A stretch of DNA of 47,800 nucleotides from Candidatus Poribacteria bacterium (GTDB lineage: Bacteria > Poribacteria > WGA-4E > UBA9662). Below the pieces are notes generated by a model. The model was not told the origin of the DNA, searched no databases, and saw only the letters and a list, made by a program, of their open reading frames with translations. Positions 1,060 through 47,800 of the stretch are shown here, piece after piece. The translations under genes were made by a program, and so were the position numbers. The DNA lies in assembly GCA_002729015.1 (NCBI GenBank), contig PBVO01000163.1, forward strand, positions 1 through 47,800, written 5' to 3'. Positions within the stretch are counted from its first letter, which is position 1, and every line of letters begins with the position of its first letter.

Positions 1060-1878
1060 TTACAATCTTGATTTAACTTCTCCCCAGGCAATAGGCAACT
1101 TGTTGTATCGACGAACCGCTAGCGTATTCGCATTCATAGCCAACGCCATTTCTGAAACCGTTATAATTCTTTCCCACATTCTTACTTGTGCGATATCAGC
1201 GTTCAGCCACTGACCATCTTCTCGATGAGCAATAAAAATCGGACGATTTCCTTTTCCGCATGGGTCTCCTGCATTAGCCCCCTGAGCTACGACTTTTTTT
1301 GTTCCATCCAGATATATCTTCACCCCATCTTTTATGCTATAGGTTCCACACTGATAATGCCATTCATTGCCTAAAGTTCCACCACTTGGCTCAGATACCC
1401 CATTCCCGGGACAATTCCAAACTGACATCCCTGGTTCTAATCCGTCATAGACATAGAGAGCAAATTCCCATGCTCCGCCTGCGCCTTTCATAACAATAGG
1501 TTGGCGATTTTGTCCATGTCCGTCTGTACCCGTTTTTCCTACCTTGACCCAAGAGCATATGGTCATCCCTTTCCCTTTATCGGTATGAGAATCGAAATCC
1601 TTACCTTGACCTGCAGCATCTATTTTAATGAAAGTCGACTTTCCATCAAACTGTAATGCTTTGTCAAACATCGCTTTGTTACCATCACCCCACTTAGGTG
1701 CTTTTTTGCTCATTTCCGTTTTGAAATTGTTGGGACCATAGTCTTTGACAGTATTTCCGGTACCCTCATCCATCGGTAAATATAGAAAAAGATCTTTCTC
1801 AATATCTGCAGCTCTAGACAAAATCGACGTTGTGAAAAAAGCGAAGATTACCAGGCAGATTATATTATTACGATACAT
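1060..1878 (-). CDS. Secreted LamG-domain protein with conserved C-terminal tail
   Basis: A 272-residue exported protein. Residues 1-24 form a signal peptide ending at SRA-AD. Residues 30-250 form one LamG/concanavalin-A-like jelly-roll: a start of the type LFLYLPMDEGTG, then ALQFDGKSTFIKI, the GMTICSWVKVG strand, the NEWHYQCGTYS strand and a closing ADIAQVRMWERIIT. Such domains bind or decorate carbohydrate outside the cell; no catalytic domain is present. The last residues, LAVRRYNKLPIAWGEVK followed by SRL, match the ends of three other secreted proteins in this window. The start is supported by a strong AAGGAGA site 7 nt upstream. The PSD1 protein gene lies upstream on the same strand, with a 509-bp gap, so co-transcription is doubtful. 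Confidence 0.88.
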   Translation of the reverse strand: MYRNNIICLVIFAFFTTSILSRAADIEKDLFLYLPMDEGTGNTVKDYGPNNFKTEMSKKAPKWGDGNKAMFDKALQFDGKSTFIKIDAAGQGKDFDSHTDKGKGMTICSWVKVGKTGTDGHGQNRQPIVMKGAGGAWEFALYVYDGLEPGMSVWNCPGNGVSEPSGGTLGNEWHYQCGTYSIKDGVKIYLDGTKKVVAQGANAGDPCGKGNRPIFIAHREDGQWLNADIAQVRMWERIITVSEMALAMNANTLAVRRYNKLPIAWGEVKSRL

Positions 1879-2387
1879 AATATCTCCTTAAATTTGATTA
1901 ATCAGCCAGACGGATCCGTCAAAATCTAAAAGAGATTTACAACGTACCGGGCGTAAAAAATCTAGTAAAATATACGATTTAATGTTTTATGGTTATTGAA
2001 TTTTCTGTAATGCCAACCAGAAGATACCAGCTGCAAACAATCATTTTAGTCAGAAATTATGCCTAATAAAATTTGGCAGTAGACCAGTCGATTTATTTGT
2101 AATAATACCCGAGAACTAAGGATATTACACCTAATTTACTAATTTTTCATCAGACACTGGGCAGAATAATTAGCCTCGTTGGTAGCGCAGAACGAAAAGC
2201 CTATTTTCCCCAAAATCATGTAATGTATACCATATTTTGAGGACCAATCGTAAAACACGAATATAAAAGATACCAATAAATTTAATTAAAATATACGGTG
2301 TAGAAAACTTAATTCAACTGGATAATATAAGTGGTGTACTCGTTGGGAACGATCGATACTCTCAAAATTTTTCTTTATTTAAATGCT
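1879..2387. other. Gene-free gap, 509 bp
   Basis: AT-rich DNA between the stop of the PSD1 protein gene and the start of the LamG gene, both on the minus strand. It must hold the LamG promoter and ribosome binding site (AAGGAGA near 1885). I see no convincing RNA gene, hairpin terminator or coding remnant. Confidence 0.6.
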
Positions 2388-5300
2388 TTACCGCTTCATG
2401 TAGAAGTCAGCAGAATTCATAACTAGATTAGCCACCAGGGTTAGAGCCGCTGTTTTTGTTGGTGATAATGCCATATCAAAAGAAGATTCACCCACTCGTA
2501 ACAGTTCGTTCGCAGCATTCTCATTTTGTTGAAAACGTTTGTAGCTCTGGTTGTAATATTGTTTCAGCACATTCATTTCCTCTTTAGTCGACTGATGAGA
2601 AGTAATCAGACAAAAGATTCGTTCCAGAAGTTCTTCTAATCCATTATCAACTTGATGCTGAACTGTTTCTGATAAAACCCGAGCTGCTTCGACAAATTGA
2701 GGATCATTCATTAGAACTAGGGCCTGCAAAGGTGTGTTTGTCACTTCTCTTTGTATTGTGCAAACACTTCGATCAGGTGCATCTAAGATCTGCATAGCAG
2801 GTGGTGGTGATGTCCTTCGTATAAAAGTATAGAGGCTGCGCCGATATAGAGAATTACCTTTGTCCATTTGATAGGTTTTCAGTTTTTTTGAAAAGTTATT
2901 TTTTTCAATCCAGAGACCAACCGGTTGGTACGGTTTAACACTTGGACCTCCGACTTTTCCATCTAACAAACCACTTGCAGCTAGGGCACTATCTCGTAAA
3001 AACTCAGCTGGCCACCGATAAGTAGTCGAGCGCCAAAGAAATTTATTATCAGGGTCTAGACGAATCGAATCTGGATTCACTCTAGAGGACTGTTGATATG
3101 TAGCTGAGGTTACCATAAGCTTAAGTAATTCTCGAACATTCCAACCTGAATCTCGAAATTTTATCGCTAGCCAGTCTAGTAGTCGCGGATGAGTTGGACG
3201 TTGCCCTTGGACGCCAAAATCATGAGGTGTGCGTACTAACCCCTGACCAAATATCATTTGCCAGTAGCGGTTGACAGCAACGCGCGCCGTTAGTGGGTTA
3301 GCAGGGGCAAATAACCATTTTGAAAACCCAAGTCGGTTAGTTGGTAGATTAGCAGAAAAAGGCATTACTATTGAGGGGGGATTAGGACTAACCTTTTGAC
3401 GACGTCGGTTGTAGATGCCTCGCTCTAGGAGATAAGTATCCCGCGGAGGATATGCCTCCTTCATTACCATTACCAATGGAACTTGGCTAAAGTATTTAAT
3501 CCGATTTTTGTATAATTTCCTGTACTCGAGTAAGTCCGTGCTCCAATCACTAGATTCTCTTTTGATCCAGTGCTCAAACCAATCGATATTAGTGAGCTTT
3601 ATCTTAATTGGATGAAGGGTTGAATTACTCGAAGTATTAGCGGGATACGATTGATATAGTCTTGCTACTTCGACAGAAGTAAGAGCCCTCGAGTAGAAAT
3701 TAAGATCGTCGAAACCACCATTGTATATCCCGAATTCACCTGTGGCACTTCGGTAACTTCGACCCATTCGGATATCTCGAGATTCATCAGCCACAATCGT
3801 TCGTGTCAAACTACTGTGCAGTGTATCTATTGAGCAAGCTCGTCCATTAATAAATAATCTTAAAGAATTACCGTTGTTCTCAAAATCAGTCCCATCGTAG
3901 CTAGCTACGATATGTGTCCACTCTTGATCTTTAACTCGATGTTTTGATCGAACATGTAGCAAATTATCCGGTAGGTTATGCACCAAGCGTGAAGATAATC
4001 TGTTTTGACCATCCAGAAATAAATCCCACCCCCGCCAATACTGATTTTTATTACCCGTGTTCCCCAACAAAGTTCGGGTGTTTTTTTTATCTTTTCTTGA
4101 TTTTGGGCGAATCCAAACTGAGACACTAAATGCATCTCCTACATCGTAGATATCAATTTTTTTGAGCGTTAAAAACCCATGTTCACCATTAATCTCTACC
4201 GCTTTTTTGTTGACTCCTGAGATGAATATTGGCGTATTTTTGAATATAATCTCAGTGATCCTATCTATGGTTAATTGAGATTTACCAGATTCATTATAAA
4301 CTGTCTCTAGATTATCGAAGGGAAAAGATCGACTATAAGGTGGTAAACTAACGAGTTCTTGCTGTTTTATATACTGATTGGCAATTGAACTGAATTGATT
4401 ATGTGCTATTCGTCGCCTTCGCTTCATTTTAGTTGCAATCGTATCTAGCTGAGTATCCAACATACCTAGTTCATGAGACGTTTCTTTACTTGGGTATGGT
4501 AGTGATGGTCCAAAGTTTCCATCATTACCTATCATACCGAGCTCTGGAACATTATTAAAGAAAGCACTGAAACGATAATAATCCAGCTGCGAAATAGGAT
4601 CATATTTGTGATCATGACATCGAGCACAATTCATGGTTAATCCCAAAAATGCAGTAGCTGTTGTTTCGACTCGGTCAAAAACATTCTGAATTCGAAATTC
4701 TTCCTCGATTGATCCAGCTTCGCTCATCATGGGATGGTTGCGTTGAAACGCTGTTGCTAAGCGTTGTTCATGTGTTGGGAGTTCTAACAGATCACCTGCC
4801 AATTGCCAAGTCACAAATTGGTCGTAAGGTATATTACGTTGAAAAGCATCAATCACCCAATCACGCCATGGCCACATTTGTCGCCAACCGTCAGCGTGCA
4901 TGCCGTGGGAATCGGCATAGCGCGATAAATCCATCCAATCCAATGCTAACCTTTCAGCATGGGCTGTCGTAGATAACAACCGGTCTACGACTTTTTCATA
5001 AGCATTATCTGAAGTATCTGCCAAAAAATCATCTATTTCTTCAATCGTTGGAGGTAGACCGGTCAAATCTATAGTAACCCTACGAAGTAAAGTAACCTTG
5101 TTAGCTTTAGGAGAAGGCTGAAGCTTTTTTTGAACTAGGACTGAGTGAATAAAATTGTCAATTTCATTACGGGCGTCAAACACAGAAAGTGGAGGATCAG
5201 CGATAACTGGGGGGGTGAATGCCCAGTGCTTATTCCATCCAGCGCCTTGGTCGACCCACTGATGTAGTATTTTAATTTCAGCTGTGGTTAGTTTCCTATG

Positions 5301-5594
5301 GCTATCGGGAGGAGGCATCCGAAATCTAGGATTTTGAGTCGTAATTCTGGATATTAGTTGACTACTTCCTGAATTTCCTGGAACGATAATGGGATTTTCT
5401 TTTCGAAATATTGTTTCTTTTCGATCTAGGCGCAGATTAGCCTGACGTGTTTTAGAGTCTGGACCGTGACAATGAAAACAATTATCGGCTAAAATGGGTA
5501 AAATCGATTCATTAAAAGAAATCAGTTCTGCCAAGATTTGAGGCGACCAAAATATAAAAATAGATAGAATTAAAAAAAGACGTATCACTTGCAT
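2388..5594 (-). CDS. PSD1 / Planctomycete-type cytochrome C domain protein with inserted LamG domain
   Basis: A secreted protein of about 1068 residues. After a signal peptide (MQVIRLFLILSIFIFW...LA) comes the Planctomycete cytochrome-C-like domain with NCFHCHGPDS (CxxCH haem motif), then the PSCyt2/DUF1549 domain with a second motif NCARCHDHKYDP. A LamG jelly-roll is inserted near the middle, and the C-terminal half is the PSD1/DUF1553 domain (LTARVAVNRYWQMIFGQGLV, then the RREVTNTPLQALVLMNDPQF-type block). The family's biochemistry is unknown; the haem motifs suggest electron transfer. I take the ATG at 5594 because it directly precedes the signal peptide and has AAGG about 7 nt upstream; a TTG at 5627 would add 11 residues. 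These proteins usually sit next to a DUF1501 gene; none is here, the next gene downstream being a LamG protein. Confidence 0.92.
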   Translation of the reverse strand: MQVIRLFLILSIFIFWSPQILAELISFNESILPILADNCFHCHGPDSKTRQANLRLDRKETIFRKENPIIVPGNSGSSQLISRITTQNPRFRMPPPDSHRKLTTAEIKILHQWVDQGAGWNKHWAFTPPVIADPPLSVFDARNEIDNFIHSVLVQKKLQPSPKANKVTLLRRVTIDLTGLPPTIEEIDDFLADTSDNAYEKVVDRLLSTTAHAERLALDWMDLSRYADSHGMHADGWRQMWPWRDWVIDAFQRNIPYDQFVTWQLAGDLLELPTHEQRLATAFQRNHPMMSEAGSIEEEFRIQNVFDRVETTATAFLGLTMNCARCHDHKYDPISQLDYYRFSAFFNNVPELGMIGNDGNFGPSLPYPSKETSHELGMLDTQLDTIATKMKRRRRIAHNQFSSIANQYIKQQELVSLPPYSRSFPFDNLETVYNESGKSQLTIDRITEIIFKNTPIFISGVNKKAVEINGEHGFLTLKKIDIYDVGDAFSVSVWIRPKSRKDKKNTRTLLGNTGNKNQYWRGWDLFLDGQNRLSSRLVHNLPDNLLHVRSKHRVKDQEWTHIVASYDGTDFENNGNSLRLFINGRACSIDTLHSSLTRTIVADESRDIRMGRSYRSATGEFGIYNGGFDDLNFYSRALTSVEVARLYQSYPANTSSNSTLHPIKIKLTNIDWFEHWIKRESSDWSTDLLEYRKLYKNRIKYFSQVPLVMVMKEAYPPRDTYLLERGIYNRRRQKVSPNPPSIVMPFSANLPTNRLGFSKWLFAPANPLTARVAVNRYWQMIFGQGLVRTPHDFGVQGQRPTHPRLLDWLAIKFRDSGWNVRELLKLMVTSATYQQSSRVNPDSIRLDPDNKFLWRSTTYRWPAEFLRDSALAASGLLDGKVGGPSVKPYQPVGLWIEKNNFSKKLKTYQMDKGNSLYRRSLYTFIRRTSPPPAMQILDAPDRSVCTIQREVTNTPLQALVLMNDPQFVEAARVLSETVQHQVDNGLEELLERIFCLITSHQSTKEEMNVLKQYYNQSYKRFQQNENAANELLRVGESSFDMALSPTKTAALTLVANLVMNSADFYMKR

Positions 5595-5830
5595 CTTTGA
5601 CCTTAATTTTTTTACAACAAAAAACAATATTCCGCTATCATAGGTACACAGATAATCTATCGCTGTTAGTCCTAAGGCAAATATTAGTATACATGTCTAT
5701 CCAATAGAAAGATAGAACAGGTGTTAGGTCGGTTGATTAGTAGATTTCAGATTAAAGATTTTTCGGCCGATAATTGTCAATAAATCGCGTCAATGAAGTA
5801 TAAAATCAGTTTTATGTACATCAGCTTAGC

Positions 5831-6640: not shown

Positions 6641-6789
6641 TTTTCATTGACTGACAAATCAAAATATTTCTTGTTAGTCAAATATCTGCTTATTTATCTG
6701 ATATTGGTCAATTTGTGATTTGGGTATTTGAATGGGTTAGGGGAAAAATTAGATAAATCCAGTAGACGATATAGCTCATTGGGTAGCAA

Positions 6790-8189: not shown

Positions 8190-8948
8190 ATGATGTTACA
8201 TGAAGTAGTTAGGCACTTGGATGTTTATGGTTATTGTCTGATAGAAAATCTGATCTCCCCCTCAAAATGCGATCAGATGGCTGAAAAATATTTCCAGCTT
8301 CATCGTCACCCTGACTTTCGTCCTCACTTTCAGAGTGCTGCCGAAATTGGCGGAGTTAATCAGACATTATTCGGCACAATCAATAAAGATGAAATGTGTT
8401 GGGACTGCATTACCCATCCAGATGTTCTAGGCGTTGTTCGACATTTTCTTGGACCAAATGCACGATTGGGAGAAGCTTGCACTAAATGGATTAAGCCTGG
8501 TGCACCGATGGCGGAAATTCATGTCGACTCCACCCAAGACCTTTTCGAACCCTTTCCTAATAAGCCATGGATAATTAATTCGATGTGGATGATAACAGAT
8601 TTCACTACCGAAAATGGGGCAACCGTTTTTGTTCCAATGAGTCACAAATCTAGAAGGTACCCATTCAGCATAAGTTCCGAAGATATCCGTATCTGCTCGG
8701 TTCCTGCTTCCCGAGGATCGGTGGTACTATGGCAAGGAGGTACTTGGCACAGTAGCGGTGCCAATATAAGTCGGGATCAACAGAGAATGGGTTTAAATGT
8801 TGCTTACTATCCTGCTTGGTGGAATTGCGCTCGGGAAGGCGGACACCAACCGGTCTTTCCGGAGGTCTTTGAACGGATGCCATTGGACCTTCAAGATCTA
8901 TGCAGGTACAAAGTTGGACATCTCCGATCCGATGTTTATGAAGAATAA
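8190..8948 (+). CDS. Phytanoyl-CoA dioxygenase (PhyH) family protein, copy 2
   Basis: A 252-residue Fe(II)/2-oxoglutarate oxygenase. The iron triad is H111-x-D113 (EIHVDSTQ) with distal H187 in GGTWHSSG, and R199 in DQQRMGLN as the probable co-substrate ligand. TENGATVFVPMSHKSR is the typical family strand-loop between the two halves of the double-stranded beta-helix. The protein has no signal peptide and is cytoplasmic. Two ATG codons lie side by side (8190 and 8193), so the start is good to one residue. It is the last plus-strand gene before a convergent GH5 gene that ends 59 bp further on. The substrate is unknown. Confidence 0.9.
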   Translation: MMLHEVVRHLDVYGYCLIENLISPSKCDQMAEKYFQLHRHPDFRPHFQSAAEIGGVNQTLFGTINKDEMCWDCITHPDVLGVVRHFLGPNARLGEACTKWIKPGAPMAEIHVDSTQDLFEPFPNKPWIINSMWMITDFTTENGATVFVPMSHKSRRYPFSISSEDIRICSVPASRGSVVLWQGGTWHSSGANISRDQQRMGLNVAYYPAWWNCAREGGHQPVFPEVFERMPLDLQDLCRYKVGHLRSDVYEE

Positions 8949-10318: not shown

Positions 10319-11005
10319 TCATTCTTTATCAGACATTATTCCCCTAGCTGCTGCTCCTATTTCCCTTCTAGCTTCTTCCGGCAAAGAACGAAATTTGTCA
10401 CTTCTAACTGCTTCCATGATAGCTTGGCGTGAAGCGCCACGAAAATAGCCACTCCACCCTTCGACTGCTTGCTTTATCTTCTGTCTATTCCACTTTCCTC
10501 CGGACTTGGAGTTTTTTCCACCTTTATCTTCCCTGCTCTTTCGCTTTTCTCTTTCTTCTCTCTCTTCCCGTCCACCTTTCTCTCCACGACCTCTTCTCCC
10601 TTCTTTCTCCCCTTTATCACTGCTGAGTCTTAAAAATTGAACCGATGATCCAGTAAGATCAATAACTTTACCTGCTTGATTTAGACTAACTTGACTGGAT
10701 TCTATTTTGACAACCTTAGATGATGTGATTTCATCACCTAGTCCCACATAATAAATTCTGTTAGAAACGCTTTCCCGAATTAGAGCTTTGGGCAGTCCAT
10801 TTTCTGGGATTTTAGTCGCTAATAACTCATATTTAGGACCTTTGTTAGGAGGTTGCCAGCCAAGTGGCCGAAATAAATTAAACTGCTGAATCGCCTGATA
10901 ATATGCCTCATCGTCAGATCTATTTTGAGCACTGAGTTGAAATATCATAAAGAAACTGAGTAAAAGGATCGTTATCAATACGTTTTTTTTCATCTTCTTA
11001 TCCAT
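10319..11005 (-). CDS. PulC/GspC-like protein with charged linker and W-x2-YFR-x-AS C-terminal domain
   Basis: A 228-residue protein anchored or exported by an N-terminal hydrophobic segment (residues 6-26). Residues 40-125 (FNLFRPLGW, NRIYYVGLGDEI, VVKIESSQVSLN) resemble the periplasmic homology region of type II secretion GspC/PulC proteins; this is a pattern judgement, not proven. Residues 130-172 are a low-complexity Glu/Arg/Lys/Gly linker. Residues 181-224 form a small helical domain, VEGWSGYFRGAS...DKFRSLPEE...REIGAAA, which occurs again inside the CotH-esterase protein encoded just upstream. No other secretion genes are nearby, so a secretion role is not implied. M5 is an alternative start. 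Function unknown; the shared domain suggests the two neighbours act together or on the same partner. Confidence 0.75.
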   Translation of the reverse strand: MDKKMKKNVLITILLLSFFMIFQLSAQNRSDDEAYYQAIQQFNLFRPLGWQPPNKGPKYELLATKIPENGLPKALIRESVSNRIYYVGLGDEITSSKVVKIESSQVSLNQAGKVIDLTGSSVQFLRLSSDKGEKEGRRGRGEKGGREEREEREKRKSREDKGGKNSKSGGKWNRQKIKQAVEGWSGYFRGASRQAIMEAVRSDKFRSLPEEARREIGAAARGIMSDKE

Positions 11006-14115: not shown

Positions 14116-15150
14116 TTAAACGGCTAATTCTTTGAGAACGGCCGCGGCCTGTTGAGCCTGTTCAGTTGAAGGATCCCTTTTGATGATTCGGGAAAGATGA
14201 ATTTTAGCTCTTTCATCCCCGGTCTGGGCTAAATTCAATGCTTCGTCAAATCCTGTATTAGAATAGCTGAAGTCTCTGGGTACTATTGTTAAATCTAGAT
14301 TTTCCCAATAGTATTTCAATTCATCTGATTCCCAGTCCCGGTAAACATCTTCCCATTTTAGGTGATTAAAAATATTTAGATGTGGTTCTAACATATGATC
14401 CGAAACTATACTACCTATCGCAGTATAACGATTATCCAAGGAAACTCGCAGCCGATCTTCAGTTAGATTAGGTAGAGCTTTGTGTACTGTTAATGCTGGA
14501 AAAATCAGAGTGTCTCCGACTTCGTAATTGGTAGTATGCCAGTTATCATCCAGTTCATCTGTATTAATACATAAACTACCGGCGCCTAATGAAAAGTGAT
14601 GATCCATTACTTTGTCAATTTTATGCGACCCTGGAAGAACTGCTAGGCCACCTAATTCAATAGGACAATCACCAATGGGAGACCAACAGGTATAGGTTTC
14701 GAAATTCCCTTGAAAATGAACAAAGTCTTGATGGATGGGGGTTGTATGAGCCGTATATTTTGGAAACCAGAGCCTCGCTACTTTATGTGGATGCGGTAGT
14801 ACCGATTCACCTAAAATTTTTTCCATCATTTCCATTACTTCTGGCCAATGGGCTGAACGATGGAACTCTTCCAATCTGTAAACCTGGTGGTAAACATTAG
14901 AATATTCCACATCACCTTCTGTGCACTGCATTGATATATCTGCAATGCCATCACTTGGATCGGTTCCCGCAATCAACCATCCATGTTCCTGCATAACAGT
15001 AAGCATTTGTCGTCGCAATTCCATCATTTTTTCTGGTTTTTGTAATCGCTTAAAAAAAAGATACCCCTCGTTATCAATACGCTCTCTAAGTGCCTCTTCA
15101 TCGTTCATGATTCCATTAGAAATTCTTAATTCTTGGTATTGGTTCGTCAT
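14116..15150 (-). CDS. Phytanoyl-CoA dioxygenase (PhyH) family protein, copy 3
   Basis: A 344-residue cytoplasmic Fe(II)/2-oxoglutarate oxygenase, larger than the other copies. Counting from the chosen start, the triad is H140-x-D142 (IHQDFVHFQG) and H223 in ALTVHKALPN, with R235 (DRLRVSLDNR) as co-substrate ligand; ELGGLAVLPGSHK is the typical middle strand. I choose the ATG at 15150 because GAGG lies about 7 nt upstream; a TTG at 15177 would add nine residues without such support. The C-terminal 80 residues are helical and extend beyond the catalytic core. The gene sits downstream of GH127 and the sulfatase on the same strand but is separated by almost 600 bp. Substrate unknown. Confidence 0.88.
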   Translation of the reverse strand: MTNQYQELRISNGIMNDEEALRERIDNEGYLFFKRLQKPEKMMELRRQMLTVMQEHGWLIAGTDPSDGIADISMQCTEGDVEYSNVYHQVYRLEEFHRSAHWPEVMEMMEKILGESVLPHPHKVARLWFPKYTAHTTPIHQDFVHFQGNFETYTCWSPIGDCPIELGGLAVLPGSHKIDKVMDHHFSLGAGSLCINTDELDDNWHTTNYEVGDTLIFPALTVHKALPNLTEDRLRVSLDNRYTAIGSIVSDHMLEPHLNIFNHLKWEDVYRDWESDELKYYWENLDLTIVPRDFSYSNTGFDEALNLAQTGDERAKIHLSRIIKRDPSTEQAQQAAAVLKELAV

Positions 15151-22066: not shown

Positions 22067-22789
22067 TCATTTGAATGCCGATCTCCTCAGTTTAGCCCAA
22101 ATAACGGTCAACTTTGTTTTGCTTTCAATAGCGAGTTGATGATCTTTGGCCTTTTTGTAATCTTCATCTGTCGCTTCATATTTCAAATCTGATGACCAGC
22201 AGAACACATCATACTGAACTTCTAAACTACCTTGTCGGGTCCAAAGCATCATCACATTTTCACCACTTTTTAGAGTGTTGACCGTTGCAGCATCTTTACC
22301 TTTTTCATCTGCGGCAGTTCCGTCTCCTATTCTAATCCATTTAAATGGGTGTGGAACGGTTACCTCACCTATAATGTGATCAGGCCGAACGAATATGGGG
22401 GGCTCAATTGGTATTTGATCTCCATCATCGCCAAGAACCCACAGCCAATCGGAGTGGTTGTTTGGATTTACTTGTCGATAACTCAATCGCCATTTGCCAG
22501 CCTCACCTCCAATTTGACTAATATCAAACCTGTACATTATCCAACCCTTGATTCCTTGGTTCGTAATAATATCCCCAAATGATCCGTCCAGTGGCTTTAT
22601 AGCTTTTTCTTTTTTGCCTAGTCTGTAATTTTTGCTTTCACTCCTATTATCAAAATCTTCAGCTTCAAACCAGATCTGTGTTCCTGACCCATAATTAGAA
22701 ACTTTAAACCTCGGGACAGACCAGACTAGATTTATTAGAATAAAGGTAAAAAAAAATATATATCCAGTTAAGTTTGCGAATTTTAACAT
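22067..22789 (-). CDS. Secreted carbohydrate-binding-like protein with conserved C-terminal tail
   Basis: A 240-residue protein with an N-terminal signal peptide (about residues 1-24). The core begins IWFEAEDFDNR and continues GWIMYRFDIS, KWRLSYRQVNPNN, SDWLWVLGDDGD and MLWTRQGSLEVQYDVFCWSSD, the pattern of a CBM6/CBM35-like beta-sandwich in which an early 'EAED' strand is common; I assign this fold with moderate confidence. No catalytic residues are recognisable. After a spacer the protein ends with LAIESKTKLTVIWAKLRR and SAFK, the same tail as three LamG proteins here, although the core fold differs. The DNA over the tail is also close to that of the LamG gene at 36063. The ribosome binding site is weak. 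Convergent with the first DUF6785-like gene. Confidence 0.75.
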   Translation of the reverse strand: MLKFANLTGYIFFFTFILINLVWSVPRFKVSNYGSGTQIWFEAEDFDNRSESKNYRLGKKEKAIKPLDGSFGDIITNQGIKGWIMYRFDISQIGGEAGKWRLSYRQVNPNNHSDWLWVLGDDGDQIPIEPPIFVRPDHIIGEVTVPHPFKWIRIGDGTAADEKGKDAATVNTLKSGENVMMLWTRQGSLEVQYDVFCWSSDLKYEATDEDYKKAKDHQLAIESKTKLTVIWAKLRRSAFK

Positions 22790-27734: not shown

Positions 27735-28490
27735 CTATTTTTTTAGATCTCCCCAAATAGTTGGTAACTTATTATGATCGTCCACATTCAAGGCTCCATC
27801 GACGCCTTTGGTGAAAAGTTCGTTTACTTCCTCAGCTGTGACGGCACGACTAAAAAAAACAAATTCGTCAATCACACAAGCAGAGACCCAACCCCCTTTG
27901 TCGGTGGCTAACCACGCTGTTTGAGGTGTGTCATCCAATTCAAATTTAGGTACATCTTGCTTCACTTTTTCCTTACCGTTAATGTAAATGCTAGCTGTTT
28001 TTCCATCATATACGTTGGCAACGTGATACCACTGGTCTTTTTTTACACTAACACCGCTAGTTACATTCCATTTGTTGCTCCAGCAACGAAGAGTATTGCC
28101 TGCCTCCTTGTATGGAACTAATCGATTTGTCCCTGAATCCCAAACAGAAAAGTAGTTTTGCTGTGCAGCGACGTCCGTAAACTGAAGCCACATAATTACG
28201 CTGGCTTTATCCCTCATCGACCCTTTACCCAAAGGAATAATAACGGTCTCATTCTTTTTGAATTCTATAGCTTGGCCAAATTTTCCCTTAACCCATTTGC
28301 CTCCTTTAAGTTCACCATCGTACTTGTTAGGTGAGGAATCTTTGGCAACATCACCTTTTCCTTCATCTAGCAACCAAATTCCAATGTTATCATCCAAACT
28401 AAGTTTGGCTTCCAAATTCGTCAACAGGCAGATTACTAGAAATAGTGAAATACTCTTCACACAAAAAATTGAACTTGCATTTATAACCAT
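27735..28490 (-). CDS. Secreted LamG-domain protein with conserved C-terminal tail
   Basis: A 251-residue exported protein. A signal peptide ends near LEA-KLS. The single LamG jelly-roll runs from IGIWLLDEGKGDVAKDSSPN over GKFGQAIEFKKNETVIIPLG, ASVIMWLQFTD, QWYHVANVYDGKTASIYING and VIDEFVFFSRAVTAEEVNELF. It then ends with LNVDDHNKLPTIWGDLKK, the tail also found on the proteins at 1060, 22067 and 36063. I place the start at the ATG at 28490, which has GAGGTG about 8 nt upstream; an adjacent TTG at 28493 is less likely. The stop codon is TAG. Carbohydrate or surface binding is likely; no catalytic residues seen. Confidence 0.88.
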   Translation of the reverse strand: MVINASSIFCVKSISLFLVICLLTNLEAKLSLDDNIGIWLLDEGKGDVAKDSSPNKYDGELKGGKWVKGKFGQAIEFKKNETVIIPLGKGSMRDKASVIMWLQFTDVAAQQNYFSVWDSGTNRLVPYKEAGNTLRCWSNKWNVTSGVSVKKDQWYHVANVYDGKTASIYINGKEKVKQDVPKFELDDTPQTAWLATDKGGWVSACVIDEFVFFSRAVTAEEVNELFTKGVDGALNVDDHNKLPTIWGDLKK

Positions 28491-29001
28491 CAATTACACC
28501 TCTATTTTCTAACTCAACTTTCGTTTCCTGACCATCATACGGTAAAACCACCCAATTCTACAACAATTAGTATTTTTCCACAAATATTGGAGTAGGAATT
28601 TTGAATTCCTTTCGGTTTCTTATCTTATTTCATTAAGTTACAAACCAAGCATAAATTTCAAACCCCAACTTTAGTCATATTACCCGTTTAGGTCTGATTT
28701 TTTATTACAAGATTCCCGATAACAAAAAGAATTTCTAATGCGGATACTTTGGGGGTAATTGTTAATTTTTCTCTGGTAATTTCAAATGTCAATTTGAGCA
28801 AAATATCATCATAACCAAAGGTAAAAATCCAAAAAAACAAGAAGGTTATTGTAACAACCAGTATATAAATCAGACATTTCAAAGAATGTTGTCAAACCTC
28901 TACATAAGAGAGGATATCCTTCACTGTAAAAACTAGTGTCCATCAATCGACACACCGAATATGAACCAACTAAAATACATAAATAATCAGCAAAACTAGT
29001 T
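28491..29001. other. Gene-free gap, 511 bp
   Basis: AT-rich spacer between the LamG gene and the broken SMR gene. A 64-codon minus-strand frame at 28688-28882 encodes a hydrophobic start and TFEITREKLTITPKVSALEI, but lacks a supported start or family, so it is left uncalled. No RNA or terminator recognised. Confidence 0.4.
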
Positions 29002-36062: not shown

Positions 36063-36860
36063 TCAATAATTAATTCTCCTTAGTTTAGCCCATACCGTTG
36101 TCATTTTATCAGCAACTGCAACCGATAAGCTGTTGGTCTTAATTTCAAAGTTCTGTCTTGCTTCTGCTGATGTTAGACCTCGGTTATACACCCGAACTTC
36201 ATCAATCAAACCATTAAAATGTCGCATGCCGAGTGCATCACCAATATGTAATGGCTCTTTGTTTTGTGACAGATCACCTTTAACAGGTTGGTCTGCGATG
36301 GATTTGCCATCCAAGTAAAGTGATCCTTTTTTGCCATTGAAACTCAATAACACATGATGCCACGACTTATTATCGTAACTGGGTAGTCCTTGGCCACGGG
36401 TATCTTTTGGGGTCAACGTTACCGATCGAAATCCAATATCCGTCGGATTTCGAGAATCTCTAACCCACACACCATAACCAGAGTTATCTCCTAAAGACTG
36501 ACCTTTACTCACCGGTCTAGGGTATTCATTATCACCACTCTGGCCTTGTAGTAGAAACCAAAATTCGATGGTAACCTCTTTTTTCAGATCTAAGCTAGCA
36601 TGATGTGGGATTTTCACTAGATCCTTTTTGCCATCAAAGGACAAAGACTGACCAAATTTGCCTTTGACACTTTTCGGAGCGCCCTTGATGGTTCCATCAT
36701 TCTTCGACCAAATATCTTTTACAATTTTTCCCTTAATAGTTTCCTGATCAAAAGACCAAAATCCGACGAGGCCTTCTGTGACCATTTCTGGTTCGAAAGC
36801 GGTCCCCATAGATCCAACACTAACTAGTAATAAACTGTAGAGTACTAGATTTTTCATCAT
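36063..36860 (-). CDS. Secreted LamG-domain protein with conserved C-terminal tail
   Basis: A 265-residue exported protein with a signal peptide ending near TAF. One LamG domain: LVGFWSFDQETIKGKIVKDI, GKFGQSLSFDGKKDLVKIPH, VTIEFWFLLQG, SWHHVLLSFNGKKGSLYLDG and LIDEVRVYNRGLTSAEARQN. It ends SLSVAVADKMTTVWAKLRR and INY, the tail shared with the proteins at 1060, 22067 and 27735. Two ATG codons stand side by side at the start with GGAAC upstream; either is possible. A related role to the other LamG proteins, binding surface or extracellular glycan, is likely. It is isolated between gene-free DNA and a YHYH pseudogene. Confidence 0.9.
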   Translation of the reverse strand: MMKNLVLYSLLLVSVGSMGTAFEPEMVTEGLVGFWSFDQETIKGKIVKDIWSKNDGTIKGAPKSVKGKFGQSLSFDGKKDLVKIPHHASLDLKKEVTIEFWFLLQGQSGDNEYPRPVSKGQSLGDNSGYGVWVRDSRNPTDIGFRSVTLTPKDTRGQGLPSYDNKSWHHVLLSFNGKKGSLYLDGKSIADQPVKGDLSQNKEPLHIGDALGMRHFNGLIDEVRVYNRGLTSAEARQNFEIKTNSLSVAVADKMTTVWAKLRRINY

Positions 36861-38349: not shown

Positions 38350-39126
38350 CTACCTGCTTCCCCGCCGTTGATAGGCGATAGCGTAGAAGGCCATTGTTTC
38401 ACCAGTACGGTTGGGTTCGCTTCGGTGCCAAGTATAGTTGGAAAAAAAGAGTCCGTCTCCGGCCGACATCTCCACCAACACTTCCTTAGTTGAATCAATT
38501 TGGTCCAGCGGGATGCGGTGCCGCCTGAAAGGTCTATACTCAACCTTTGGAGAACCACTAAACATCGGTGGATCATCATAATAAGATTCATGTTTCGTTA
38601 GGACCCAATTGGTATGACTACCCGGCATCACAGACAAAGCGATAGCATCCACTCCCACCTTATGCATCGGTATCCAACAGTTACATCCCAATTCTGGTTC
38701 GATTTTCCAATACCAGGAATCCTGATGGAAAAAGCTTCGTCCTCCCTGCTCAGTCTGAATCCATCCGTGCTTGACACCAACCTGATCTGTAAATAATTCT
38801 ACTTCACCATCTAGCAGAATAGCCATGAACTGACCAAGATTGGAGTGTTCCGCTACTGCAGCAAACACGGATTCTTCTAGGCTTGGTCGTTGAATGCCTT
38901 GGGCCAATGGATGACCTGAAACTGAACAATATTCCGTTGGGTTAAGAACCTGAAAGCGCTCGCTCGGCCAATCCGGTGGATGGTCAATAATTTCTTGGAC
39001 CCTTTTCCAAGCCGCTTCCATTAGTGCTGGAGGGATTAATCCTTCTATCAAGCAAAATCCTTGTTTCCGATACTGATTAATATAATCAGTCGGCATATTT
39101 TCTCCATACAGTTTGGCTTGATTCAT
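38350..39126 (-). CDS. Phytanoyl-CoA dioxygenase (PhyH) family protein, copy 4
   Basis: A 258-residue cytoplasmic Fe(II)/2-oxoglutarate oxygenase. It opens with INQYRKQGFCLIEGLIPPAL, typical of the family. The triad is H134-x-D136 (SFFHQDSWYW) with distal H234 in NYTWHRSEPNRTG and R240 as the likely co-substrate ligand; AIALSVMPGSH is the middle strand. The start at 39126 has GAGATAAATT upstream; M11 is an alternative. The gene is relatively GC-rich (about half in one counted line). It is divergent from the endonuclease-family gene. Substrate unknown. Confidence 0.9.
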   Translation of the reverse strand: MNQAKLYGENMPTDYINQYRKQGFCLIEGLIPPALMEAAWKRVQEIIDHPPDWPSERFQVLNPTEYCSVSGHPLAQGIQRPSLEESVFAAVAEHSNLGQFMAILLDGEVELFTDQVGVKHGWIQTEQGGRSFFHQDSWYWKIEPELGCNCWIPMHKVGVDAIALSVMPGSHTNWVLTKHESYYDDPPMFSGSPKVEYRPFRRHRIPLDQIDSTKEVLVEMSAGDGLFFSNYTWHRSEPNRTGETMAFYAIAYQRRGSR

Positions 39127-42063: not shown

Positions 42064-43998
42064 TTAAGAAAATTTTAATCCATACGCTGTATAGACGGAT
42101 AGTGCTACTGCACGACCAAGATAATGACCAATTAGTAATCCAATAAAAAACGGAACACCTTTAGCATAGAGTCGTGGCCCTCCCCACTTCAATATTACAT
42201 GTTTCAAAATCCAAGTAATAAAAAAACCGAGATAGACAGTATACAATGTGAATGAAGAAATTATAACTAGTCCGATTGGGTGAACAGGCCACCACAAAAA
42301 CTGGTAATACATAATTGTCAGCCCCATCATAAGAAAGCCTCCAATTCCAAAATAAAACAGGCGTTGCCAGATTTGTTCTTTTCCCATTGAAGATTCAATC
42401 TGAGTTAGTATTTGTCCGTAAGTGTTAGGCCCAAATCCACGGAATAACCAAGTGTTCCAGTTTAGAGCACCTTGCCAATAGCCCGACAGAATCACTCCCC
42501 ATGGAGCAACCAGTAACCCCACACCCAAAGCTAATAAAATTACTACTGTCAGCTGGCGTCCCGAGCAACCAATCGCAGACCTTAACCTCACTGCTTCTGC
42601 ACTAAAACCAGAGACAATAGATTGAACATCACCATGCCAAGCATAAGTTAAACTCATTGAAATCATTCCCTGGTGACCAATTTGCTTAGGAGAAAACAGA
42701 TGAATACATGGATTTTGAGAAATCATTGGGGGTACGACATAAAAAATACCTGATTGACAAACCACACGAGAAATTCCGAGATAAATTAGCATCAGTAATG
42801 GCACGAAGATTAAGTTTATTTCAAGTTGAATCCCAGATTGAGTCAGCCATATGACCATAAAAACAATGCTGGTTCCAAATGTAATTATCGCACTTCTAGG
42901 CGTCATCAGCATATTTGGGTCAGCCTGAGTCTTTTTCAATGACATACAAACGAATTGCCAGAGATTTCGTCGAGCACGGTAAACAAGAAATACTACGAAA
43001 ATAATAAATGCTCCGAAAGATTGCCAAGCAATAGCTGCGTTCCCCCAGACAAACATCCCTCCAGAACCAAGGTACCATTTGCCAGTGTAAGACAACACTG
43101 AGACTTCCCCAACTTTTATCAAAAGGTATAAGAGCCATATACTAAGGAGTACGTTTTGTGGTACAAAGTAACCAACCCCAATAGCAATGAAGTTGATACA
43201 GACCGTCAGTGATGATAGACCAGGAGTCGAAAAAGGTGCACCCCAGTTGAGCGAACCAAGGTGATCTACTGGGAAAGATGGAATTTGTGGTTTTATATGA
43301 TGACCAACATCAAAAATGAAAATAGAAAAAGGAATTGAAACTCCCAACCAAAGCAATGGATTCGACCAGATGGATAATTCAAGATGTCGACTCCCTTCTG
43401 TTAGGTGTAGAACCGGTTGCATTAATGGATAGGCTAATTTTTCTTGTTCTATCCACTGTTGGCGAAAGAAGATAATCAACGTATATGAGGCTAAGATGAG
43501 AGAAATAAAGAAGGTTGACCAAACTACAAGGGGGATAATCCAATCTTGCCAAGGTAGATCGCTTCCGGATGGTAGGCCTTCATAAAACCATTGGACTGCA
43601 TGATTGGTGTCACTAATAATTAACCAATCTGGCAGGTAGGGTAGAAGCAGGTTATGCCATTCATTTTCTGGTGAATCGAAGTAACGAGGAGACACAATTG
43701 CCGCTAAAAAAAAGTAAATCAACCAGATAGAAGTTGCATTAGACACTAAACCCATAACAAAAATAACTAGTAACTCACTCTGGGTTAAACCAAGTTTGTT
43801 TTTGACATTTAGGATTAGTGCATTAATCGACATCAGTAACAGTACGGGGATAGCTGCTCCTTCCGGTAGATAGCTCCACGAAAAATTGCTGAAACCAACG
43901 CTTTCAGCATACGGAGACGCCAAATTAACAAAGATTACTACGATAACTCCAATTAGTATTGATCTGGGAGTTATCTGACTTTGGTCATTTTTTTTCAT
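42064..43998 (-). CDS. DUF6785/DUF6784-like polytopic membrane protein, paralogue 2
   Basis: A 644-residue protein with about 12-14 membrane segments and no signal peptide apart from the first helix. It shares with the other two paralogues LTQSELLVIFVMG, SPENEWHNLLLPYLPDWL, the loop RQQWIEQEKLAYPLMQPV and the end GGPRLYAKGVPFFIGLLIGHY. It is the most divergent of the three: the ITRMRAELG and HQLEGFKM motifs are replaced by ISRVVCQSG and by a His-Gln segment around IGHQGMISMSLTYAWHGDVQ. Transport of a metabolite is a guess; no function is known. Together with the GH8 gene downstream it could form a two-gene transcription unit. Confidence 0.8.
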   Translation of the reverse strand: MKKNDQSQITPRSILIGVIVVIFVNLASPYAESVGFSNFSWSYLPEGAAIPVLLLMSINALILNVKNKLGLTQSELLVIFVMGLVSNATSIWLIYFFLAAIVSPRYFDSPENEWHNLLLPYLPDWLIISDTNHAVQWFYEGLPSGSDLPWQDWIIPLVVWSTFFISLILASYTLIIFFRQQWIEQEKLAYPLMQPVLHLTEGSRHLELSIWSNPLLWLGVSIPFSIFIFDVGHHIKPQIPSFPVDHLGSLNWGAPFSTPGLSSLTVCINFIAIGVGYFVPQNVLLSIWLLYLLIKVGEVSVLSYTGKWYLGSGGMFVWGNAAIAWQSFGAFIIFVVFLVYRARRNLWQFVCMSLKKTQADPNMLMTPRSAIITFGTSIVFMVIWLTQSGIQLEINLIFVPLLMLIYLGISRVVCQSGIFYVVPPMISQNPCIHLFSPKQIGHQGMISMSLTYAWHGDVQSIVSGFSAEAVRLRSAIGCSGRQLTVVILLALGVGLLVAPWGVILSGYWQGALNWNTWLFRGFGPNTYGQILTQIESSMGKEQIWQRLFYFGIGGFLMMGLTIMYYQFLWWPVHPIGLVIISSFTLYTVYLGFFITWILKHVILKWGGPRLYAKGVPFFIGLLIGHYLGRAVALSVYTAYGLKFS

Positions 43999-44715: not shown

Positions 44716-46650
44716 TCAAATCCAAAAAACATACGTTTCTGAGTTGCTGACCACACCAACAATCGTCCATATGCTCCCCATCACGAATTCACCTAATATC
44801 AGGCCGAGAAAAAACGGAATGGACCGCCGATAGGACTGTAATCCGCCATGCTTTAATACCACCCACTTGATGAACCAACTCAAGAAAAGTGGAAACCAGA
44901 TTAGATTCATTGTCCAACTGCCAGACAATGCATATCCAAGTGGATGAAAAGGCCAGTCCAAAAAACGTGTTCTCATCCACATCAAAATGTATGTCAATGT
45001 TATACCCGTGCCCATGAATCCCATACCAAGATAATCTGTACCCACGGGACTATTGAGCCACCCTTCTAATCGAGTGAACGCTTCTCGACCGACGTGTACT
45101 CCATTTGCTTCTGGCATACGATAAGTCATGATAAGATACAGAAAAAAAGAGGCAAACGAGCCCACAAAAATGGCTGGGATTGTGGCCATGAATATGCTTT
45201 TACTTTTGAGCTTCATCAAATCAGCCATTTTGAATCCCTCTAACTGATGTGGTTGTGGGTGGTTCCGGTAATCGCGGTTGAAACCATAAAACAAACTGAT
45301 AGTAGTTAGGTTAGCTGGTCCGAGCCTTTTGGTTCCAATCATATTAACCATGATTGTATCAGGCCCAGAAGCGCCCGCATACCACAAGTCGTGTACAGGT
45401 GTTCCTAATTCGGCCCGCATACGGGTAATAGCAATTGAAATTGAGAAATAGGAGACCAGAAAAATTGCTGATGCCCAAAGTGTCAATCCCGCCTTGACAC
45501 AAAATACCAATAACAAAATGGCAACCACAATAGTTGTTAGAGACACTCGCCGATATTGACTTGATTCTTGGGTATCATCCGGAGTTCCTGAAGGTGAAAG
45601 TATCTTTCGAAATACGGACCAAAGGTGCCTGCGGCTGCTCCACAAGGCTAAGGCACACAAGCCGATATAAGCTCCTACTGCTTGCTCATTACCATATGGG
45701 AATCGTGGCAAACTACGTAGGCCAACCGCGCTGCCAAGAACTAACTGCAGTTTATATATCAAATAAAAAGACCAACAAGAAAAAGAGAGATCCAATGGAA
45801 TCAAAAATCCTAATCCAATGATGAAAGGGTAAAACCGGACAGGTAACCAGCTAACTGCTGACCACGGTTTTTCAGTTAACAATTGCCTAAAGTCATATCC
45901 ACGGATAGGAATTGCCGGAATCACCGGGTAGAACACACTTAGTCCGTTTAACACGTTAATACCTATAGCCACCAAAAATCCAATTATCAGCGCGTGATTG
46001 CCAAACAATCCACCTAAGTCTTGGTGTCGCACCATTTCTAGTGGTAGCTGAATGACGGGGTAGCTTAGTTTTTCGTGTTCTATCCACTGTTTGCGCAGAA
46101 TGACATTGAGGCAAGTCATCATTACAACTAGAAGGCTAATAAATCCCGTCCACATCAGGCAAGGAATCAACCAGGCCTGAATGTGTCGTGGAATCAGTAA
46201 AGTCGAAGATTCTTGATAATAACCTCTAAGAGCCTTTAAGTCATCAACAACAAGGTGCTTGGGTAAATAGCGCCAAAAAAGCTGTTTCCAATCATTTTCT
46301 GGCGTCGCATACCAGAAGGAGTGTCCCAAATTTGCTACTACATCCTGCATCATATCTAAGCCGCTGATACCAGAGGCAATCGATAGCATAGTATAGATAA
46401 TGAGTAATTCGTGAGATGAAAAAGCCAACTGAGGTAATAATCGGACAAGTACCAAATTCATTACTTGTAGTACAAAAATGGTAAAAATGACATTGAAAAA
46501 AAGAGAAATACAAGTTGGATAAGCTAAGTATCGTCCCAGTTCAATGGTCACGATCCAGTAACTATTCAGTGGAATTAGAACACAGCCAGCAAGGATTGCT
46601 TTAGTAATTGATTTATTTGACTCTAACTCGGCTGTGGTTTTTCTACTCAT
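44716..46650 (-). CDS. DUF6785/DUF6784-like polytopic membrane protein, paralogue 3
   Basis: A 644-residue membrane protein, close to paralogue 1: ITKAILAGCVLIPLNSYW, FSSHELLIIYTML, ATPENDWKQLFW, LRGYYQES, the loop RKQWIEHEKLSYPVIQLPLE, ITRMRAELGTPVHDLWY, HQLEGFKMADLM and the end GGLQSYRRSIPFFLGLILGEF. It has a charged N-terminal tail before the first helix. The function is unknown; a carrier role is inferred from topology. The broken PhyH gene lies 74 bp upstream on the same strand, close enough for co-transcription. Confidence 0.82.
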   Translation of the reverse strand: MSRKTTAELESNKSITKAILAGCVLIPLNSYWIVTIELGRYLAYPTCISLFFNVIFTIFVLQVMNLVLVRLLPQLAFSSHELLIIYTMLSIASGISGLDMMQDVVANLGHSFWYATPENDWKQLFWRYLPKHLVVDDLKALRGYYQESSTLLIPRHIQAWLIPCLMWTGFISLLVVMMTCLNVILRKQWIEHEKLSYPVIQLPLEMVRHQDLGGLFGNHALIIGFLVAIGINVLNGLSVFYPVIPAIPIRGYDFRQLLTEKPWSAVSWLPVRFYPFIIGLGFLIPLDLSFSCWSFYLIYKLQLVLGSAVGLRSLPRFPYGNEQAVGAYIGLCALALWSSRRHLWSVFRKILSPSGTPDDTQESSQYRRVSLTTIVVAILLLVFCVKAGLTLWASAIFLVSYFSISIAITRMRAELGTPVHDLWYAGASGPDTIMVNMIGTKRLGPANLTTISLFYGFNRDYRNHPQPHQLEGFKMADLMKLKSKSIFMATIPAIFVGSFASFFLYLIMTYRMPEANGVHVGREAFTRLEGWLNSPVGTDYLGMGFMGTGITLTYILMWMRTRFLDWPFHPLGYALSGSWTMNLIWFPLFLSWFIKWVVLKHGGLQSYRRSIPFFLGLILGEFVMGSIWTIVGVVSNSETYVFWI

Positions 46651-46724
46651 TCGATAGACTATTCCGTCTTGATTGACCTAGGAATGGAGGCCGGTTGCGC
46701 TTAGCCTAAATACTAAAGCGTTGA

Positions 46725-47507
46725 CTATGCTAGTTTTTGTTGCTCCGGTGACAGTGGGTTATGACCAGACAACAAGAGGTTGTCTTTTAAAGGAACACCT
46801 TTATTGTTTTTGGTGCCGACTGGCATATAATGGATTACCATGGCTCGACGGTCTTGATCTGACCTGTTTGGATTTGTCTGATGCAAGGTCAGACAGTGGT
46901 GGACCTTGGCATATCCAGCTTTGAGTGGTATGGAAACAGATTGACTCTCATCAGCGTCGACTGATAATAGGCTAGGTAATTCTTGTTGTTCTTGTTTAGC
47001 CCGGATGTGATTATGTGGTTCCTCTAAATGGCTACCCGGCAAAACATTCATGCAACCGTTGTTTGTATCGGCATCATCAAAGTCGATACAAATACTAATC
47101 AGTTCAGCTGGCTGACAACGCCAATAGCCATTGTCTTGGTGCCAAGGGACATCCCCTCCCACCTTAGACAGTTTATAAAGAGCTTGATCGTGAAATAGTT
47201 GCACATTTGGACCAATGAGACTGGTGGCCACATCAAGTAATGGCTGATGGAAAAGTAAGTCACGGAAAATATCATTCTTTTGCCACATCTCACTGACTTG
47301 TAACATTTTGTTCTATTGGTCGTTAGTTTTTTCGGCTGTCAACGAAAGATTTCGCCACCCCTGTTCAGCTATTTGATCAAGTTTGTTAAATACTTGATCA
47401 TAGGATTGACGCAACTGTTGAAGATGGTCATACTCAATCACTCGATGTGGAATTTCTAGATACCCAATCTGTTGAAAGGTTTGGAATTGTGATGGGGTTA
47501 ATTTCAA
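46725..47507 (-). pseudogene. Phytanoyl-CoA dioxygenase (PhyH) gene, copy 5, interrupted by an in-frame amber codon
   Basis: The frame begins at an ATG at 47507 (MKLTPSQFQTFQQIGYLEIP, a typical PhyH start), runs 64 residues to KTNDQ, meets TAG at 47313-47315, and continues in the same frame with NKMLQVSEMWQKND to a stop at 46725. Without the amber codon it would be one 260-residue PhyH protein. All iron ligands are in the second part: H-Q-D in PWHQDNGYW and a distal His in LTLHQTNPNRSDQDRR. The ATG at 47306 could restart translation, but the product would lack the first strands of the fold. TAG serves as a normal stop elsewhere in this window, so read-through is not expected. The DUF6785-like gene follows 74 bp downstream. 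Confidence 0.85.
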
Positions 47508-47705
47508 TTTTTCACCTCAATAATCCAATTAAATTTTGTGGGGATCAGTATGCAGAAAGCCTTTGCTATCAAAATAATGATAATTGAGCAAACCAAATGA
47601 CTCGAACTACATTTCAATTGATAAGGCCATATTCGAGAATTTGTATTTGGTAAATAGTGGTTTTGGATCAATTGATTCATTAAGTTCATTTTAGTGGGAT
47701 AGAGC

Positions 47706-47737
47706 TGAAAAAGCCCCGTTTAACCAATAACGGGGCT
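47706..47737 (-). terminator. Rho-independent terminator for the gene cut by the right edge
   Basis: AGCCCCGTT at 47712-47720 pairs perfectly with AACGGGGCT at 47729-47737 over an 8-nt loop. On the minus strand the stem is followed by TTTTTC. It lies 28 nt after the stop codon of the partial gene at 47765-47800 and is the clearest terminator in the window. Confidence 0.88.
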
Positions 47738-47764
47738 CAAATACACTCTAGCTGATTGAAGGTT

Positions 47765-47800
47765 TTAGTTAGAACCGTGAACTTCTTTGATTTGCCCCCA
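47765..47800 (-). CDS. 3' end of a gene cut by the window edge, probably a secreted protein with the conserved tail
   Basis: Only 11 codons and a TAA are visible: WGQIKEVHGSN. W-G-Q-I-K matches the W-[GA]-x-[LV]-[KR] core at the ends of the four secreted proteins at 1060, 22067, 27735 and 36063, with Ile in place of Leu/Val, and a good terminator follows 28 nt later. I infer another LamG or carbohydrate-binding secreted protein, but the body of the gene lies outside the window. Confidence 0.6.
   Translation of the reverse strand, partial: WGQIKEVHGSN

Follow-up and report, generated by a model that had tools for sequence, protein, structure and literature searches.

A Tryptophan-Containing C-Terminal Tail on Exported Proteins of Poribacteria Looks Like a Previously Undescribed Sorting Tag

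Four Exported Proteins with a Common C-Terminal Tail

We analyzed 47,800 nucleotides (hereafter the window) of contig PBVO01000163.1 from a Candidatus Poribacteria bacterium. Four proteins of the window, all encoded on the minus strand, are closed by a common C-terminal block (hereafter the tail), which was found on translation at the places where an initial annotation of the same DNA had put it. The tail consensus is V-x-[PA]-x-[GD]-K-L-x-T-x-W-[GA]-x-[LI]-K, about 17 residues, usually ending 2-4 residues ahead of the stop. The tail looks like a previously undescribed C-terminal sorting tag, akin to the known C-terminal sorting tags. The four carriers, named below by their first coordinate, and their tails are as follows (aa, amino acids; pLDDT, predicted local distance difference test).

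1060..1878, minus strand: secreted LamG protein of 272 aa, tail carrier (translation; Pfam Laminin_G_3 at residues 93-243, E 1.6e-13)
1072..1122, minus strand: its tail, LAVRRYNKLPIAWGEVK, with the stop 3 residues further (translation; fits the motif)
22067..22789, minus strand: secreted protein of 240 aa with a CBM6/CBM35-like core, tail carrier (without a Pfam match; Foldseek)
22082..22135, minus strand: its tail, LAIESKTKLTVIWAKLRR, then the four residues SAFK and the stop (translation; AlphaFold pLDDT below 50 at residues 221-235)
27735..28493, minus strand: secreted LamG protein of 252 aa with a TTG start, tail carrier (Pfam Laminin_G_3 at residues 94-224)
27738..27791, minus strand: its tail, LNVDDHNKLPTIWGDLKK, at the very C-terminus (translation; AlphaFold pLDDT below 50 at residues 234-252)
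36063..36860, minus strand: secreted LamG protein of 265 aa, tail carrier (Pfam Laminin_G_3 at residues 76-233, E 3.7e-23)
36075..36128, minus strand: its tail, LSVAVADKMTTVWAKLRR, with the stop 3 residues further (translation; fits the motif)

The three Laminin_G_3 matches and the CBM6/CBM35-like model of the 22067 protein agree with the initial annotation, which had given three carriers a LamG core and 22067 a different, CBM-like one; the N-termini of all four look like signal peptides by eye, as it had also claimed. The product of window gene 2388-5627 (minus strand), a PSCyt1/PSCyt2/PSD1 cytochrome-type protein, has an internal LamG domain (Pfam) and no tail, and is a useful negative control. 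Relatives of the 27735 protein were found at 55 genome loci, all in Poribacteria records, and the 3 homologues with an organism name among the 120 matches listed are Candidatus Poribacteria. The 22067 protein also has a family of homologues, whose named members among the matches listed are Poribacteria.

AlphaFold models were examined for two carriers. In the 27735 model the tail (residues 234-252) has a pLDDT below 50 with a short helix at 244-251, the block means of the core are 82-96 over residues 61-220, and the Pfam LamG match stops at residue 224 of 252. In the 22067 model the tail (residues 221-235) is again below 50, with a helix at 225-238, and the core blocks range from 61 to 93; for this core, the first six Foldseek matches, at E 2.6e-5 to 1.1e-4 and with modest TM-scores, comprise CBM6/CBM35 modules and a GH115 enzyme. 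The tail is thus modelled in both carriers as a low-confidence helix and not as a strand of the core, which bears out the initial view that it is not simply the last strand of LamG. A closing LamG strand was rejected on these helical, low-pLDDT tails and on the variable linker.

Anatomy and Conservation of the Tail

Among 112 tails, in which K1 and W6 were fixed by the selecting pattern, V at position -4 occurs in 92%, L2 in 86%, T4 in 60%, G or A at position 7 in 91%, L or I at position 9 in 83%, and K10 in 93%. The stop lies 2 to 4 residues past K10 in 141 of 179 carriers. Conservation scores were calculated in each family from the 117 of 120 homologues kept for having W[GAS]x[LIMVT]K near the end, a filter to which the W and last-K scores are partly due and of which the V, K, and L scores are independent: they are 1.0 (V), 0.94 (K), 0.89 (L), 1.0 (W), and 1.0 (last K) in the 27735 family, with 0.14-0.69 for the tail neighbours, and 0.95 (L), 1.0 (W), and 0.97 (last K/R) in the 22067 family. 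The conserved tail of the 27735 family is preceded by a variable linker. Among the matches listed for 22067, W[GAS]x[LIMVT]K lies within the last 25 residues of 117 of 120 homologues and the strict motif is present in 30 of 120, the first Lys position being often L, R, C, N, or S by eye. The block in the consensus of the initial annotation therefore stands, but its first Lys is not fixed.

Pairwise codon identity among 83 tails is 0.38 at third positions vs. 0.76 at second positions, and the 60 bases past the stop have a mean identity of 0.25, which is that of chance. With synonymous sites scrambled and nothing in common beyond the stop at the DNA level, it is the peptide that is under selection, and the tail is conserved at the protein level. 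The helical hydrophobic moment exceeds the shuffled mean in 79 of the 83 tails; the tail is amphipathic in sequence.

Position at the C-Terminus and Export

The motif K[LIMVA]x3W[GASR]x[LIVM][KR] was used to scan open reading frames (ORFs) in about 1 Mb of 27735-family loci plus the window (2162 ORFs). It gave 72 matches, 71 of them at most 7 residues short of the stop, in a locus set that is biased in that most matches are relatives of the query. The unselected sample was the first 1.2 Mb of the 5.0 Mb chromosome of a Poribacteria record (G001), with 1081 genes predicted by a longest-ORF rule, and here 23 of 24 motif matches are at most 11 residues from the stop. An export-like N-terminus, judged by a crude hydrophobicity rule, is found in 22 of these 23 carriers vs. 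390 of the 1058 other genes (Fisher P 6e-9), and the 23rd carrier has an apparent signal peptide behind a mis-set start (by eye).

Replacement of the Trp in a similar pattern served as a control in 2643 genes. The numbers of C-terminal and internal matches were 129 and 4 for W, compared with 5 and 8 for F, 0 and 6 for Y, 1 and 28 for L, 1 and 13 for I, 1 and 11 for V, and 1 and 2 for M, or 9 and 68 for the six replacements together. With the Trp replaced, the C-terminal bias is lost. At least 4 of the 9 non-Trp C-terminal matches (at least 4 of the 5 Phe cases) come from one large-protein family. Five large proteins of G001 (1162-1452 aa) have an LPVELSSF domain followed by ends like VSAANRMLTTFGALKKQAK, with F in place of W, and these ends align with the tail by eye. 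To judge from this alignment, the Phe-ended large-protein family looks like a true variant of the tail.

G001:C2 264372-268730, 853909-857802, 884149-887637, 1012214-1016320, and 1154609-1158586: LPVELSSF proteins with the Phe tail variant

A profile built from 112 non-redundant tails was searched in the same 2643 genes, which come from 99 sources (2.87 Mb), most of them fetched because of the tail. The profile was trained on C-terminal examples, so that its positional figures lean toward the C-terminus: at 15 bits or more, all 169 matches lie no further than 15 residues from the stop; the C-terminal share is 4 of 5 at 12-15 bits and 6 of 6 at 8-10 bits, and matches below 6 bits are mostly internal. 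The N-terminus is export-like in 92 of 96 non-redundant carriers (crude rule); 3 of the other 4 begin less than 80 bases from the end of their locus and may be cut. The initial annotation had anticipated from such a search that matches would be abundant, sit at the extreme C-terminus with few exceptions, and fall on exported proteins of varied core fold, and this is what was obtained. A protein search with the tail only returned just 2 weak matches (E about 7) from 162 candidates.

Carriers and Their Cores

The 179 carriers scoring at least 8 bits, a set in which some places are present twice through overlapping loci, group by core into 31 clusters, of which the largest holds 124. Median carrier length is 264 aa. 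Pfam Laminin_G_3 was found in 51 of the 96 non-redundant carriers and 3keto-disac_hyd in 8, and PD40, WD40, CBM_4_9, F5/8 type C, NPCBM, LRR, and AhpC-TSA in 1 to 4 each (among 25 of 78 families); carriers outside Laminin_G_3 have other domains or none. The tail is not tied to LamG, in agreement with the initial annotation, given 31 core clusters and Laminin_G_3 in 51 of 96 carriers. The cores include LamG, CBM6/35-like, WD40, TolB-type, LRR, F5/8, and thioredoxin-like folds, with examples at the following loci.

L051:4503-5573: WD40 propeller, tail carrier
L054:4559-5599: TolB-like propeller, tail carrier
L139:10245-11033: F5/8 type C protein, tail carrier

Tail carriers sometimes stand in runs, with six in L138:8039-15681 and others in L139, L145, L153, and L157, stretches of a kind that was fetched because of the matches and is not a measure of run frequency.

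Distribution among Genomes

Genomes were assigned to the phylum by their grouping with G001. A degenerate DNA pattern of the tail was found in 84 of 84 phylum genomes, 18-160 times per genome, as compared with 0-5 for the reversed pattern. Of the 84 phylum genomes, 83 have the tight pattern K-L-x-T-T-W-[GA]-x-[LIM]-K, as against 0 of 109 other relatives. A second tight pattern occurs in all 84 phylum genomes and in none of 302 others, its reversed control giving 0 in all 386. In 80 outgroup genomes a loose pattern stayed at chance, with 47 matches vs. 38 for the reversed control and at most 4 per genome. The tail is confined to the phylum Poribacteria in the genomes searched.

A perfect tail (KLTSTWGEIK) was also seen in an outgroup genome, its gene lying at one end of a 7.4 kb contig (L170, G154:C7). 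This gene has the LPVELSSF domain as in the large Poribacteria proteins, but its tail has the usual W. The likely source is contamination of the assembly, and a rare outside occurrence is also possible.

Comparison with Known Sorting Signals

The C-terminal type A domain of the type IX secretion system (T9SS; TIGR04183, Por_Secre_tail) resembles the tail in being C-terminal, in closing mixed cores exported by Sec, and in occurring many times per genome in the same genomes. It differs in size, with about 70-90 residues (72 profile positions) vs. about 17, and without evident sequence similarity. A profile of our own, started from six TIGR04183 matches in Poribacteria, yielded 19 matches among the 2643 genes; 15 end no more than 10 residues before the stop. 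None of the 19 is among the 179 tail carriers, and no protein examined has both devices. TIGR04183 is absent from the 25 of 41 families listed for the 96 carriers, and had no match in 10 carriers picked as non-LamG (E up to 1) or in 15 lone tails (E up to 10). Identity of the tail with the T9SS type A domain was rejected, as neither TIGR04183 nor our profile matches the carriers. The only matches to the 15 lone tails, NCBIfam choice_anch_X (E 0.049, 1 of 15) and Pfam PSD4 (E 0.051, 1 of 15), are both at chance level. Short and long classes of T9SS domain, both modelled on the PorV shuttle, are described for Prevotella intermedia (PMC11969387), so that these signals, like ours, come in more than one length class. 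In that paper both classes are predicted T9SS C-terminal domains with conserved domain motifs, from which the tail would differ.

PEP-CTERM, IPTL-CTERM, and MYXO-CTERM are, like the tail, short C-terminal sorting tags on diverse exported proteins. These tripartite tags have a transmembrane helix and a basic end, and IPTL-CTERM also has a W-G pair. A PEP-CTERM/exosortase-type tag was rejected for our carriers: a hydrophobic segment within the last 45 residues was seen in 0 of 96, and exosortase was found in only 3 of 81 phylum genomes. The LPXTG signal, whose role is anchoring, is also C-terminal, but 0 of 96 carriers have an LPxTG-like motif in the last 60 residues or a terminal transmembrane helix, and a sortase signal was rejected on this basis, sortase genes being outside the search. 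The tests made on the carriers thus uphold the initial statement that the tail is not LPxTG, PEP-CTERM, or the type IX domain. A lipobox-like sequence occurs in 6 of 96 carriers (crude rule), so that a lipoprotein signal is no general feature. In the cohesin-dockerin system a small C-terminal module, the dockerin (a Ca-binding repeat about 60 residues long), docks secreted binders to a scaffold, as the tail could, although the tail is far shorter. We found no description of the tail or of Poribacteria T9SS machinery in open-licence PubMed Central papers.

Type IX Secretion Genes and Domains in Poribacteria

Family searches covered 81 phylum genomes. SprA (TIGR04189, E up to 1e-3) was found in 80 of 81, typically as correctly ordered segments of a single ORF of about 2000-2300 aa. 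The PorV family is present in 81 of 81, with 8-24 matches each, all over the cut-off. A C25 (gingipain/PorU-type) peptidase was found in 80 of 81 (1 to 5 each), and the T9SS C-terminal domain TIGR04183 in 81 of 81, with 9 to at least 62 matches among the best 62 candidates per genome. One SprA-like protein of about 2266 aa is encoded in L059 (G001:C2:26198-32998, minus strand). In L169, L175, and L176 a PorV-type protein adjoins a protein whose end resembles a T9SS-type C-terminal domain (by eye). A PorV profile of our own found 5 genes in the fetched set. The three in G001 are more than four genes from any tail carrier; the other two lie in L021 and L030, orthologous places fetched through a tail carrier, and each has a tail carrier two genes away. 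Kamke et al. (2014; PMC3909097) reported T9SS-type domains on Poribacteria WD40 proteins, found none of the structural genes, and left the pathway open.

Proteins with the T9SS domain are larger than the tail carriers (median 848 aa). Several carriers have homologues among them: the tail protein L138:9137-9790 shares 48% identity over 174 aa with a portion of a T9SS-domain protein of 1391 aa, the WD40 tail protein L051:4503-5573 aligns with five T9SS-domain proteins (31-38% identity over 261-305 aa), one of them encoded by the adjacent gene L051:5744-9148, and L050:13921-15552, with a weak tail (8.5 bits), matches a T9SS-domain protein at 40% over 261 aa. These alignments indicate that homologous cores carry either the tail or the T9SS domain, even in adjacent genes.

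Possible Roles of the Tail

We consider it very probable that the tail is a dedicated targeting tag. The properties of a tag that the initial annotation described were borne out; the recognition by a sorting, anchoring, or assembly factor that it proposed stays a proposal, with no receptor identified. As for the reader, we suggest that reading would follow Sec export and take place at the outer membrane: an SprA-like translocon would let the carrier through, and the tag would be taken by a member of the large set of PorV-type barrel shuttles. On this view the tag would be a peptide-sized substitute for the immunoglobulin-like (Ig-like) T9SS C-terminal domain of the larger Poribacteria proteins. 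For the statement as a whole, a phylum-wide targeting tag acting after Sec export and read by a T9SS-like route, we would give a chance slightly short of even, and the T9SS-like reader taken separately is a tentative proposal. More specifically, the tail may be a further type IX signal, an amphipathic helix (V-x-P-x-G-K-L-x-T-T-W-G-x-L-K) that replaces the Ig-like domain and is read by the PorV-type shuttle family, which we put forward with more doubt than belief.

Reading by a PorV-type shuttle through an SprA-like translocon is favoured because the system is present, the shuttles are many, and homologous cores bear either device. It is also helped by two precedents. In the domain of Porphyromonas gingivalis HBP35 the last 22 residues are reported to be required in green fluorescent protein fusions for T9SS surface transport (PMC3120885), and in Flavobacterium different shuttles are reported to serve different signal or domain types (PMC12618676). 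Several observations weigh on the other side. The tail has no evident sequence similarity to T9SS domains, and the SprA score exceeds the curated 200-bit cut-off in only 1 of 81 phylum genomes. The GldM/PorM motor was found in 0 of 81 phylum genomes, by a search that was equally silent in 14 control genomes. SprA is present in 30 of the 80 outgroup genomes, over which matches to the tail pattern stay at the chance level (47 vs. 38); T9SS does not imply the tail, because there are SprA-bearing outgroups without it. WD40 repeats easily match one another, and common cores mean a common kind of cargo, not a common route. No significant proximity was seen between tail genes and T9SS-domain genes (P 0.06 to 1). 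The 27735 orthologue (57 loci) showed no conserved machinery neighbour; the genes often found next to it are sulfatase-, aminotransferase-, and transporter-like by eye, with no sorting gene recognized. The initial annotation had looked to co-occurrence with one conserved membrane or protease gene; no single partner of this kind emerged, since SprA, PorV, and C25 all co-occur with the tail and SprA is also found in those outgroups.

Nearly as likely as PorV-type reading is a docking or anchoring peptide recognized by a Poribacteria-specific receptor independently of T9SS, the carriers taking another route or staying in the periplasm and the helix plugging into a surface or periplasmic scaffold, much as dockerin binds cohesin. 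The confinement of the tail to the phylum (84 of 84 vs. 0 of 302), which SprA does not share, agrees with such a receptor, as do the many carriers with small carbohydrate-binding-type folds suited to scaffold display and the raised hydrophobic moment of 79 of 83 tails. Against it, neither a receptor nor, in the one neighbourhood tested, a conserved partner gene was identified, and homologous cores alternate with the T9SS domain. Degrons typically have hydrophobic residues near the C-terminal end. A degradation, quality-control, or maturation mark, in which a periplasmic or surface protease or chaperone would recognize the C-terminal helix, would fit these degron-typical residues and the C25 peptidases of 80 of 81 genomes, but we think it improbable: residue spacing and Trp are strictly kept, and a degron would be unexpected on so many apparently functional secreted binders.

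That the tail is the last structural element of LamG or another core, or a chance similarity, is very improbable. Common descent would explain part of the similarity, with LamG in 51 of 96 non-redundant carriers, and the low model confidence at the tail is compatible with its packing on the core, which counts against our proposal as well. The 31 core clusters, the low-confidence helical tails, the variable linker, and the reversed-pattern and Trp-replacement controls speak against both versions, and chance was rejected on these two controls and the tight-pattern result (84 of 84 vs. 0 of 302). Spread of the tail as DNA by a mobile 3' cassette, without any protein function, we regard as scarcely credible. 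Carriers are sometimes adjacent (P 0.03 for direct neighbours; no significance at a distance of 2 or 3 genes), but the scrambled synonymous positions and the post-stop identity of 0.25 in 83 tails contradict a DNA-level cassette.

Poribacteria are uncultivated, and a phylum-wide C-terminal tag would allow a large set of their targeted exported proteins to be listed from sequence alone. They are described as being among the most dominant bacteria of marine sponges (PMC3909097). The SprA, PorV, and C25 homologues found here reopen the question of the secretion pathway left by Kamke et al. (2014), and it is now testable. If a T9SS-like shuttle reads the tag, the signal is much smaller than the Ig-like domains of T9SS, and a 17-residue zip code would address dozens to more than 100 small binding proteins per genome to the surface. 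If it is not read by T9SS, another receptor would serve dozens of proteins in every genome of the phylum.

Other Features of the Window

A second candidate shared module, unrelated to the tail, was noticed in two neighbouring genes of the window. Residues 174-224 of the product of 10319-11005 (minus strand) and residues 518-568 of that of 11273-13906 (minus strand) form a common 51-residue module (39% identity, E 2e-10), which is C-terminal in the former and internal in the latter. By eye, PhyH-like (phytanoyl-CoA dioxygenase-type) genes lie at 1-849, 8190-8948, 14116-15177, 38350-39126, and 46725-47306. The genes at 19896-21836 (plus strand), 42064-43998 (minus strand), and 44716-46650 (minus strand) encode three look-alike multi-spanning membrane proteins of about 645 aa (by eye), and a similar-looking membrane protein adjoins the SprA-like gene in G001 (C2:33194-35179).

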